From Paenirhizobium naphthalenivorans (GTDB lineage Bacteria > Pseudomonadota > Alphaproteobacteria > Rhizobiales > Rhizobiaceae): DNA of 64,000 nucleotides. Position numbers and translations under genes: made by a program. Of the stretch, positions 1 through 56,497 are shown piece by piece. Positions within the stretch are counted from its first letter, which is position 1. Each line of letters begins with the position of its first letter. The notes beneath the pieces were generated by a model that saw only the letters and a program-made list of their open reading frames with translations, was not told the origin of the DNA and ran no database searches. Where the stretch lies: assembly GCF_007992095.1 (NCBI RefSeq), contig NZ_BJZP01000013.1, forward strand, positions 62,001 through 126,000, given 5' to 3'.

Positions 1-34
1 TTGAACTTGTTCCTATAAGCGGGGCCACGCTATT

Positions 35-919
35 ATGCCGCAGTCAGGCGAAAATCCCACAGCCATGGACCGACTGATCGAGACCCTGGATCTCGAAAAA
101 CTCGAGGAAAACCTGTTTCGCGGCATGAGCCCGCAAAACGGCTGGCAACGCGTGTTCGGCGGCCAGGTTATCGCCCAGGCTCTGATGGCGGCGCAGCGCT
201 GCGTCGACAACGACCGTCGCGTCCATTCGCTCCACGCCTATTTCGTCCGCCCCGGCGACCCCACGGTGCCGATCATCTTTGAGGTCGAACGGACCCGTGA
301 CGGTTCGAGCTTCTCCACCCGTCGCGTCGTCGCCATCCAGCACGGCAAGACCATCTTCGCCATGTCCTGCTCGTTCCAGATCGAAGAGCCCGGCTACGAT
401 CACCAGATGGCGATCCCGGACGTGACCAAGCCCGAAGAGTTGATGGGCGAGAAGGAATTCCGCGAGGTCTTCCTTGCCCAGGCGCCCGACACGGTCAAGC
501 GTTATTGGGGGCGCGAACGCCCCATCGAGATTCGCCCGGTCTCCCTCACCCACTACATCTCGAACGAGAAGCTGGACCCCAGCGCCCATATCTGGGTGCG
601 CACCACCGGTCCAGTGCCGGACGATCACCATTATCAGTATGCCGTCCTCGCCTATCTCTCCGACATGACCCTGCTGGACACATCGCTCTACCCGCACGGA
701 ACCTCGATCTTCAATCCGGAAATCCAGCCCGCGAGTCTCGACCATGCCATGTGGTTCCACCGCCCCTGCCGGCTTGAGGATTGGCTTCTTTATACCCAGG
801 ACAGCCCGAGCGCATCCGGCGCTCGCGGCATGACCCGTGGCAGCATCTATGGCCGGGATGGCACACTGATCGCTTCCGTCGCCCAGGAAGGCCTGATCCG
901 CAAAAGAGCAAACGCCTAA
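35..919 (+). CDS. tesB: Acyl-CoA thioesterase II (TesB family)
   Basis: Hydrolyses acyl-CoA to free fatty acid and CoA in the cytoplasm. The 294-aa product has the double hot-dog layout of TesB and aligns along its length with the E. coli enzyme (286 aa) as I remember it. The catalytic set is visible as Asp210 (in LAYLSDM), Ser234 at the position of the family Thr (QPASLDHAMWFHR), and Gln284 (VAQEGL). The start is uncertain: ATG at 35 is the longest, and ATG at 65 (MDRLIETL) gives 284 aa. Neither has a clear ribosome binding site. It stands alone, followed by the glnK promoter region. Family assignment is firm; the preferred substrate cannot be read from sequence. Confidence 0.93.
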   Translation: MPQSGENPTAMDRLIETLDLEKLEENLFRGMSPQNGWQRVFGGQVIAQALMAAQRCVDNDRRVHSLHAYFVRPGDPTVPIIFEVERTRDGSSFSTRRVVAIQHGKTIFAMSCSFQIEEPGYDHQMAIPDVTKPEELMGEKEFREVFLAQAPDTVKRYWGRERPIEIRPVSLTHYISNEKLDPSAHIWVRTTGPVPDDHHYQYAVLAYLSDMTLLDTSLYPHGTSIFNPEIQPASLDHAMWFHRPCRLEDWLLYTQDSPSASGARGMTRGSIYGRDGTLIASVAQEGLIRKRANA

Positions 920-25643: not shown

Positions 25644-25953
25644 CGGCTCTTCCTTATCGTTTCGGATCTCCGAAACGTCGGTCTTTCCCGCGCTGAAAAC
25701 AAGACGCAAAGCCAAAATGCACCCGAGGGCGCATCGCGCTGTCGGGTGTTGACCTCCGGGATCTCTTTATACCTTTACGGGTCCCGGTCGGCGGCTCGGA
25801 GTCGTGTCTCGTCGCAGATTTAAGGGCGATAAACAGGAAAGACCCGGAAAAGTCAAGGCAGACCGGGAAATTCGCCGGATCGCGCGCCTGCGGTCTTCCC
25901 AATCCGTGTTCGAGGCCCCAGATCTAGAACACCCGTAACAGCTACTGGCCCCG

Positions 25954-54968: not shown

Positions 54969-55140
54969 GGATTCACCGGAAGGCTGAGGATACGACAACT
55001 ACTATTTTTCACAGGCGTATCGCCATTTCAACTGAGGGTCCACCAACTCGCATGCGAACCGCTGACGGGAAAGGCCCGGCACCTTGACGCACAACCCGCC
55101 GAACCAACGAGCGGACGAACCGGCGAGGGCCGGCTTTTGC

Positions 55141-55168
55141 TTGACTCTCGGCGAAAACCTTTTAATAG
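55141..55168 (+). promoter_or_regulatory. Probable promoter of the asd leader
   Basis: TTGACT at 55141-55146 and TAATAG at 55163-55168 (16-base spacing) form a housekeeping-type promoter. Transcription would begin near 55175, giving a leader of about 245 bases before the asd start. Confidence 0.5.
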
Positions 55169-55192
55169 CTCGGCCGGAATAGGGATTCACTC

Positions 55193-55312
55193 ATGCATTC
55201 TTTCTGCTCGCACATCGCAGACAGATCGAGCCTGGTGCACAGCGCCGGGAACGCCTTGCGTTACTCCCTTTCATTCACGACCACGGCCAAAACGACGACG
55301 AAAACCGTCTGA
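55193..55312 (+). CDS. Thr/Lys-rich 39-aa leader peptide upstream of asd
   Basis: An open frame of 39 codons starts at ATG 55193, with AGGGA at 55181-55185, 7 bases upstream. The final twelve residues before Val-stop read TTTAKTTTKTV with the preceding F: seven Thr and two Lys codons, all within 33 bases. The remainder (MHSFCSHIADRSSLVHSAG) is unremarkable. Thr and Lys are end products of the pathway whose second enzyme is encoded by asd. A cluster of end-product codons followed by hairpins is the layout of peptide-leader attenuators (thr, his, trp, leu). I know of no description of one for rhizobial asd. Whether it is translated is inferred from sequence only. Confidence 0.6.
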   Translation: MHSFCSHIADRSSLVHSAGNALRYSLSFTTTAKTTTKTV

Positions 55313-55402
55313 CGTCTCTGGCCACCGCTCTCTCCCCGGCACGGCCGGGGACAAGGAAGACGCGCTCGAAGCGCGGCTCCCCCCTCACAGCCCGAGGAGA
55401 GA
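55313..55402 (+). promoter_or_regulatory. Stacked hairpins between leader peptide and asd (possible attenuator)
   Basis: An 8-bp stem TCCCCGGC-acg-GCCGGGGA occupies 55333-55351, followed by CGCGC-tcgaa-GCGCG at 55361-55375. CTCTCTCC at 55328-55335 can instead pair with GGAGAGA at 55396-55402 or AGAGAG at 55408-55413, the purine-rich ribosome binding region of asd. CGGCC in the leader-peptide coding part (55284-55288) can pair with GGCCG (55343-55347). These are competing structures; no T-run follows the strong stem, so control could be translational rather than by termination. Confidence 0.5.
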
Positions 55403-55420
55403 CAGAAAGAGAGCAATTTA

Positions 55421-56452
55421 ATGGGTTTCAAGATCGCAATCGTAGGCGCCACCGGCAACGTCGGGCGCGAAATGCTCAACATCCTCGCCGAGCGCGGTTT
55501 TCCGGCCGACGAGGTGGTCGCACTGGCTTCGGCCCGCTCCCAGGGCACGGAAGTTTCCTTCGGCGACAAGGTGCTCAAGGTCCAGAATCTCGAGAACTAT
55601 GATTTCTCCGACACTGACATCTGCCTGATGTCGGCCGGTGGCACCATTTCGCAGAAGTGGTCACCGAAGATCGGCGCCAAGGGTTGTGTCGTCATCGACA
55701 ACTCGTCCGCCTGGCGCTACGACGCCGACGTTCCGCTGATCGTTCCGGAAGTGAACCCGGACGCCATCGTCGACTTCAAGAAGCGCAATATCATTGCCAA
55801 CCCGAACTGCTCGACCGCCCAGCTCGTCGTCGCGCTGAAGCCGCTGCATGATGCCGCCAAGATCAAGCGTATCGTGGTGTCGACCTACCAGTCCGTTTCC
55901 GGCGCCGGCAAGGAAGGCATGGACGAACTGTTCTCGCAGACCCGCGCCGTCTTCGTCGCCGACCCGATCGAGGCCAAGAAGTTCACCAAGCGCATCGCCT
56001 TCAACGTCATCCCCCACATCGACGTCTTCATGGAAGACGGCTACACGAAGGAAGAGTGGAAGGTCTTGGCCGAAACCAAGAAGATGCTCGACCCGAAGAT
56101 CAAGGTGACCTGCACCGCGGTTCGCGTGCCGGTCTTCATCGGCCATTCGGAATCGGTCAATATCGAATTCGAGAATGAAATCAGCGCCGACCAGGCCCGT
56201 GACATCCTGCGTGAAGCACCGGGTTGCCTGGTGATCGACAAGCACGAAAACGGCGGCTACATCACCCCGGTCGAATGCGCCGGCGAGGATGCCACCTTCA
56301 TCTCGCGTATCCGCGAGGACGCAACGGTCGAAAACGGCCTCAACCTGTGGATCGTCTCCGACAACCTGCGCAAGGGCGCGGCTCTCAACGCCATCCAGAT
56401 AGCCGAGCTGCTGGTCAATCGCGGTCTGATCAAGCCCAAGAAGGTCGCCTGA
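55421..56452 (+). CDS. asd: Aspartate-semialdehyde dehydrogenase
   Basis: Reduces aspartyl phosphate to aspartate semialdehyde, the branch point to Lys/diaminopimelate, Thr, Met and Ile. The 343-aa product has the NADP-binding start [19 protein letters not shown], the catalytic Cys near residue 130 in [17 protein letters not shown], and [13 protein letters not shown]-type segment [13 protein letters not shown]. The conserved His/Gly-rich end with [20 protein letters not shown] is intact. The start at 55421 follows a purine-rich region (AGAGAG at 55408). A 245-base leader with a Thr/Lys peptide precedes it. A 13-bp hairpin follows it. Confidence 0.97.
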
Positions 56453-56462
56453 TCCGTCCTTC

Positions 56463-56497
56463 GCAGGCCCCCGGCATCAGTGACGCCGGGGGCCTGC
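56463..56497 (+). terminator. Hairpin terminator of asd
   Basis: GCAGGCCCCCGGC-N9-GCCGGGGGCCTGC is a perfect 13-bp stem beginning 11 bases after the stop. It lacks a strong T-run but is very stable. Confidence 0.75.

Follow-up and report, generated by a model that had tools for sequence, protein, structure and literature searches.

Does the short reading frame in front of asd in Paenirhizobium naphthalenivorans, with its end rich in threonine and lysine codons, control the gene behind it, and by what kind of RNA switch? In the window, that is, the whole stretch of 64,000 nucleotides that was analysed, asd occupies positions 55421-56452, on the forward strand like the other features of the locus. 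Of 397 genomes from the order, 389 gave an Asd match to this ORF of 343 amino acids, and we take it to be the gene of aspartate-semialdehyde dehydrogenase, a name that comes from the preliminary description of this DNA and from knowledge of the family. Upstream of it lies a 39-codon leader ORF (55193-55312) that encodes MHSFCSHIADRSSLVHSAGNALRYSLSFTTTAKTTTKTV and closes with the stop codon TGA (55310-55312). The peptide ends in TTTAKTTTKTV, and we confirmed in the sequence that seven Thr and two Lys stand among its last eleven residues, as had been described; these control codons, which are found in the relatives too, span 55277-55306. The ribosome-binding site reported ahead of the frame is present as AGGGA at 55181-55185. 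A promoter-like element (55141-55168) had also been spotted by eye, with TTGACT (55141-55146) and TAATAG (55163-55168) separated by a 16-nt gap, and transcription probably starts at about 55175. This element was borne out in part: CTTGAC and the AAAA that follows it are invariant in all 35 aligned members of the genus, but TTGACT/TAATAG is absent from the list of a generic promoter scan. Directly 3' of asd, a strong inverted repeat can be seen by eye at 56464-56496 (CAGGCCCCCGGC / GCCGGGGGCCTG), which is possibly the end of the transcript.

The leader ORF stands out from the other short frames of the window. Of the 773 short ORFs (12-90 amino acids, both strands), it is the only one with at least 7 Thr/Lys in any 12 residues. 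By the same rule (7 in 12), 153 of the order's 182 distinct upstream regions have a Thr/Lys-rich ORF before asd, whereas there was none among their 182 reverse complements and a single one among 910 dinucleotide shuffles; the 182 regions are those kept after removing L035, which has no asd start, regions with less than 300 nt upstream and regions with identical 250-nt ends. Consistent with what had been proposed, the Thr/Lys run is thus unlike random coding. A DNA search with positions 55141-55720 matched 58 of 60 genomes, its own genome counted in, where the query found a single place. The alignment of the genus (n=35) shows hardly any variation in three places, namely the control codons, the pyrimidine tract plus hairpin 2, and the ribosome-binding region of asd, and the N-terminal half of the leader peptide drifts. 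Among the best 80 of 589 relatives, which include Rhizobium, Agrobacterium, Sinorhizobium, Neorhizobium, Shinella, Brucella/Ochrobactrum, Mesorhizobium, Hoeflea and Roseibium, 79 have a short ORF upstream of asd in which Thr and Lys make up 5 or more of the final 16 residues; the lone exception without a Thr/Lys ORF is L129. Conservation of the frame and its Thr/Lys run had been set as a test beforehand, and both survived it. Of the 25 families sampled in the order Hyphomicrobiales (Rhizobiales), several of them represented by one sample, 17 have the leader, and in the other 8 no leader was detected at a threshold of 7. These comparisons of sequence indicate that the leader is real and order-wide.

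Outside the order, the leader was present in 2 of 40 genomes fetched from the 133 genomes of the same class with an Asd match. These two, L208 and L214, have ORFs ending in TTKTKTGITV and TTTKKTKTVA before asd, which could reflect either transfer or an older origin. A leuB motif was found in 15 of 38 leaderless members of the class versus 1 of the 153 leader-bearing and 2 of the 29 leaderless members of the order. This pattern is no more than suggestive of an ancestral state without the leader, in which leuB and asd formed an operon. We also searched near the hom, dapA, aspartate kinase and thrC matches of the same genome, where no leader with 7 in 12 was found; at a thrC match of L249 that falls below its cut-off there are two short ORFs with 6 in 12. 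A contig titled Arenimonas sp. (L052, JAIBEK010000042.1), presumably a gammaproteobacterium by that name, carries an asd that is 97% identical and a leader peptide that is the same as that of the rhizobial L002; this bin is probably mislabelled or contaminated.

The preliminary description knew of no leader for a rhizobial asd, and here it needs correction. SEP5 of S. meliloti is a translated small protein that excerpts of PMC10117765 call "possibly a leader peptide" and "conserved only in Sinorhizobium"; its frame, in the 5'-UTR of an asd-type gene, holds six Thr and three Lys codons towards the 3' end. In our set, three loci from Sinorhizobium species other than S. meliloti (L090, L099 and L101) have a frame that ends in KTTAKTTTKTV before asd, which is also six Thr and three Lys, and we therefore take SEP5, going by those excerpts, to be the same element and an apparent ortholog that supports the ORF call. 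On the sequence comparisons above, "conserved only in Sinorhizobium", as the excerpts word it, is too narrow. The excerpts give no RNA structure or mechanism for SEP5 (PMC10117765), whereas here an order-wide leader with covarying helices is described; judged against them, the peptide is not wholly new and the RNA switch is the new part. Our searches of the open-access literature turned up no other description of an asd leader, and passages of PMC1273637 and PMC4117421 do not mention one.

Next, we studied the codon content of the leader in 47 different codon strings from Rhizobiaceae-type leaders and in 67 diverse representatives. The latter, with a 6-mer Jaccard index of at most 0.35, were drawn from 167 sequences with a Thr/Lys score of at least 7, a stop-to-ATG distance of 75-160 and no N. 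In the codon strings, Thr and Lys are equally frequent at codon -11, with 20 each, and nearly so at codon -9, with 20 Thr and 21 Lys; the stop is TGA in 45 and TAA in 2. The best 12-codon windows of the representatives hold 432 Thr and 164 Lys, with all four Thr codons present, and families differ in how Thr and Lys are ordered and spaced. Because Thr and Lys replace each other, all four Thr codons are used and the order varies, codon sensing is a better fit than a fixed arrest motif, and a run of codons for the end products of the pathway appears to have been kept by selection. Only 36 of the 67 representatives showed an SD-like 4-mer ahead of an in-frame start, which makes translation of the leader elsewhere in the order less certain than in the window. 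The lysine control codons, both in the window (55289-55303) and order-wide, are mostly the rarer synonym AAA: the leader lysines of the 67 representatives count 139 AAA versus 25 AAG, and the 36 long ORFs of the window 412 AAG versus 82 AAA. Seven loci, mostly of Agrobacterium (L062, L073, L084, L085, L089, L091 and L094), have the leader end SIRITAKTTIKTV, in which Ile codons stand beside those for Thr and Lys; Ile is made from Thr.

To describe the RNA, we folded 91 distinct Rhizobiaceae-type sequences with RNAalifold, and the consensus contained a hairpin 1 around the stop codon, a hairpin 2, and the pairing of GCTCTCT (55327-55333) with AGAGAGC (55408-55414). Hairpin 1 (55285-55323) joins region 1 to region 2 and is closed by GGCC/GGCC around the stop; region 2 is GUCUCUGGCC (55314-55323). 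Hairpin 2 (55333-55351) is the GC hairpin TCCCCGGC-ACG-GCCGGGGA, which had been placed right after the stop; it does have 8 bp, but it starts 21 nt past the stop. Its 3' arm is region 3, GGCCGGGGAC (55343-55352), with which region 2 can form 10 of 10 pairs in competition with hairpin 2. The second hairpin of the preliminary description is our hairpin 3, CGCGCT-CGA-AGCGCG (55361-55375), which is variable in sequence and was listed by a generic scan on the other strand. GCTCTCT is the putative anti-Shine-Dalgarno (anti-SD) tract, and AGAGAGC, or region 4, coincides with the asd ribosome-binding site in the genus alignment and the consensus fold; a second purine stretch, GGAGAGA (55396-55402), is also able to pair with the tract. 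Pyrimidine tracts behind both hairpins had been proposed to pair with this site. The pairing appears in the consensus fold, but the tract CTCTCTCC (55328-55335) lies 5' of the GC hairpin and overlaps it. A minimum-energy fold of the single sequence pairs the leader start with the asd SD, and was dropped because the leader start is not conserved in relatives.

Since the helix arms are nearly invariant among the Rhizobiaceae-type sequences, the pairings were tested across the 67 representatives by comparing the complementarity within each species with that between species. Four preselected pairs gave a signal (n=67): the segment 0 to +14 after the stop against +28 to +56 (2:3), with z -8.8; the leader end against the stop region, with z -4.5; the 5' zone of hairpin 2 against the SD zone, with z -3.8; and the anti-SD zone against the SD, with z -3.2. 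Two unrelated control pairs gave z -1.2 and -0.8 (n=67). We then scanned 825 window pairs, with z computed from 12 derangements and a pooled deviation and relatedness among the 67 handled through the control pairs only. The pair (0..13):(32..45), that is 2:3, ranked first with z -13.8, and its neighbours reached -11.6 and -11.1. The anti-SD zone (16..29) against ATG-28..-15, the SD zone, gave z -7.8, with a further value of -6.3; hairpin 3 gave z -7.6, the leader end against the stop region (1:2) z -5.9, with -4.7 and -4.0 also recorded for hairpin 1, and hairpin 2 z -5.5 and -5.4. Altogether 35 pairs fell below -4 and 5 lay above +4; one of the 35, with z -631, was an artefact of the program and was ignored. 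Some signals lie outside the model, namely the control-codon zone against region 3 (z -6.3 and -5.2) and the leader end against ATG-32..-20 (z -5.1).

The 3' arm of hairpin 2 covaries both with the segment after the stop and with its own 5' arm, from which we conclude that these helices are mutually exclusive. The exclusivity follows from the coordinates of the windows, and the helices concerned would involve the control codons and the stop region. In one of the states the asd SD is predicted to be sequestered, going by the consensus pairing and the z of -7.8; a wide anti-SD window set against a wide SD window gave a z of -0.6 (n=67, not significant). The alternative folds and the anti-SD pairing of the preliminary description are supported by covariation, but the pairing is more specific than it was drawn there: the GC hairpin's 3' arm has a rival partner in the segment after the stop.

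Taken as a whole, the evidence makes it probable, in our judgement, that the asd leader is a Thr/Lys-sensing translational attenuator which acts kinetically on the nascent RNA with the asd SD as its output; the leader ORF, the Thr/Lys run and the helices are read from sequence and the nascent fold from computation, and to that extent the original interpretation is supported. With amino acids plentiful, the ribosome would reach the stop and cover region 2 (~+1 to +11), as the footprint of a terminating ribosome would, and hairpin 2 would form; the anti-SD tract beyond the ribosome would then pair with the asd SD, and asd translation would be low. With Thr or Lys scarce, a ribosome stalled on the control codons would break hairpin 1 and leave region 2 free to pair with the 3' arm of hairpin 2 (2:3), so that the anti-SD tract would lie inside a loop, the SD would be open and asd would be translated. 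In an untranslated leader, region 1 would pair with region 2, 2:3 would not form and asd would be off. The switch would therefore be a kinetic one on nascent RNA, similar to that of trp, with an SD in place of the terminator as output. We infer the stalling on starvation, the direction of control and the kinetic persistence of 2:3.

Folding calculations were used to follow the response to ribosome position. At full-length equilibrium, with the RNA of the 91 Rhizobiaceae-type sequences cut at the stall positions, SD openness barely shifted (0.45-0.49), and it rose from 0.48 to ~0.60 only on loss or occlusion of the anti-SD tract at ~+15 to +20. An equilibrium model in which the stall opens the SD was thus unsupported, and for this reason we examined nascent-RNA states. 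On nascent RNA with region 2 free, the probability of 2:3 exceeded 0.5 in 53 of the 67 representatives, compared with 31 when untranslated and 7 at full length. In the window, with region 2 free, 2:3 kept a probability of 0.91-1.00 until the transcript end reached ATG-20 and had dropped to 0.03 at ATG-10; with a ribosome at the stop, or without any ribosome, it was 0.00 at every transcript end. The probability of 2:3 on untranslated nascent RNA was 0.09-0.25 up to ATG-20 in the 11 Rhizobiaceae-type representatives and 0.41-0.52 in the 56 of other types. The species' own region 2 mattered, as 2:3 exceeded 0.5 in 79% of 67 cases with it, in 35% of 536 with a shuffled one and in 39% of 536 with that of another species. 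When 2:3 was imposed on the leader of the window, the SD became more open (0.71, up from 0.53) at a cost of 5.5 kcal/mol (mean cost of forced 2:3, 6.9 kcal/mol). Across the 67 representatives, forced 2:3 left the SD more open in 26 and less open in 18, and the purine zone before the SD more open in 41 and less open in 10; among the 11 of Rhizobiaceae type the SD opened in 10. These computations suggest a preference for 2:3 on nascent RNA that is clear in the Rhizobiaceae type and weaker elsewhere, and they make a kinetic switch plausible, best in Rhizobiaceae.

Other explanations start from the same observations. Some of the folding results point to a coupling by masking: on reaching the last part of the leader, a ribosome would hide the anti-SD tract and so expose the asd SD, and flow through the leader would raise asd. 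The rise in SD openness of the Rhizobiaceae-type sequences came from occlusion at ~+15 to +20 only, and in the 56 representatives of other types, where the tract is nearer the stop, the SD is most open with the ribosome at the stop (0.60 versus 0.50 stalled), contrary to the model favoured here. A ribosome stalled on the last Thr codon, though, would reach only to about +4, short of the Rhizobiaceae tract, and this coupling gives no role to 2:3, the strongest of the covarying helices; we regard it as rather improbable. Far more doubtful is an action of the leader peptide itself, by arrest or in trans. A leader peptide of S. meliloti, peTrpL, is reported to have a function in trans (PMC7298713); here, the differences among families in how Thr and Lys are arranged and spaced, and an N-terminus that is not conserved, tell against it. 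That the frame is a chance product, or that a pure RNA element merely resembles a frame, we consider next to impossible: although the Rhizobiaceae DNA is almost invariant here, the contrast of the 7-in-12 counts with their reverse-complement and shuffled controls, the synonymous and Thr/Lys-exchanging changes and the translation of SEP5 reported in excerpts of PMC10117765 all speak for a translated frame.

The level of control is where transcription attenuation competes with the translational attenuator, the position of the ribosome deciding in that case whether RNA polymerase stops before asd, at a Rho-dependent or an unrecognised terminator. The trp, his and thr leaders work in this way, hairpin 3 covaries, and Rho needs no T-run; in L120, moreover, T's that can be seen by eye after hairpin 3 form a stretch that is partly paired in the stem and is not counted by the terminator rule. 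Against it, our scan rule found no intrinsic terminator in any of the 67 representatives or 151 distinct leaders. The same rule found 19 in 1340 shuffles, and as only ~1 in 67 is thus expected, this result is to be read as absence and not as avoidance. The most 3' of the covarying helices falls, besides, on the SD zone. Without a terminator that meets the rule and with the last covarying helix on the SD zone, a translational output is the simplest reading, and attenuation of transcription seems unlikely to us. The preliminary description had noted that no T-run follows the main stem, as is the case, and had suspected translational control, which fits the terminator counts and the covariation of the anti-SD pairing.

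Compared with known systems, the proposed translational attenuator resembles thrL, trpL and hisL: a leader ORF carries codons for the end products, the helices 1:2, 2:3 and 3:4 exclude one another, region 1 contains the control codons, and the stop lies next to region 2. It departs from them in that its last helix holds the SD and no terminator meets the rule, that two amino acids of a branched pathway are involved, and that the target is asd. With leaders of the ermC type, rtpLP of B. subtilis and the cysteine-codon uORFs of mycobacteria it would share the principle that the position of a ribosome on a short ORF sets a downstream SD; the cues, phyla and folds are others, and the likeness is one of logic.

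An additional hairpin, P0 (55231-55249, ~64-82 nt before the end of the stop), was detected within the leader coding region of Rhizobiaceae-type leaders. In 43 representatives of this type its own-versus-cross z is -9.9, 78.9% of the cells are paired versus 31-46% for slid versions, and its covariation of 0.250 (0.170 shuffled) was reached by none of 500 shuffles. The number of pairs with double changes was not above that of the shuffles (121 of 500), and a scan of the same kind in 60 leaders of other types gave nothing below z -4. P0 lies in the variable N-terminal coding part, where the coding sequence drifts and the RNA fold is kept. A second covarying pair stands near the leader start in the Rhizobiaceae-type sequences (~55198-55223; z -7.3 between the windows at -115 and -100 relative to the stop). 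We infer that P0 acts as a polymerase pause in Rhizobiaceae leaders. The fullest form of our reading is a three-way attenuator like that of trp, kinetic, with the asd SD as output, two end products sensed and a P0 pause in Rhizobiaceae, that was already present in an ancestor shared by most Hyphomicrobiales families; we advance it tentatively, at somewhat less than an even chance of being right in full.

Asd makes the branch-point precursor of Thr, Lys, Met and the diaminopimelate of the cell wall. If the attenuator is real, a ribosome-based sensor of two amino acids at the Asd step would explain how the pathway is set across much of the order, the leader being seen in rhizobia, Agrobacterium, relatives of Brucella and Roseibium, and it would be a natural example of trp-type logic applied to translation instead of termination. 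A short remark on a small protein of Sinorhizobium would thereby become a testable, order-wide RNA switch with base-by-base predictions.

Finally, we searched positions 55100-55480 with the covariance models of Rfam. No family reached its gathering score, and the two matches up to E = 10 were far below it. One of these, the Brucella sRNA CI414 (E = 8), was not reproduced in the Brucella and Ochrobactrum loci and was taken as chance. Lysine riboswitches and the streptococcal asd motif, which are cis elements of the same pathway, had no match at gathering score here. The sole match of the window at that score is the ffh sRNA (RF01793, 68.1 bits), at 25712-25763 on the reverse strand.
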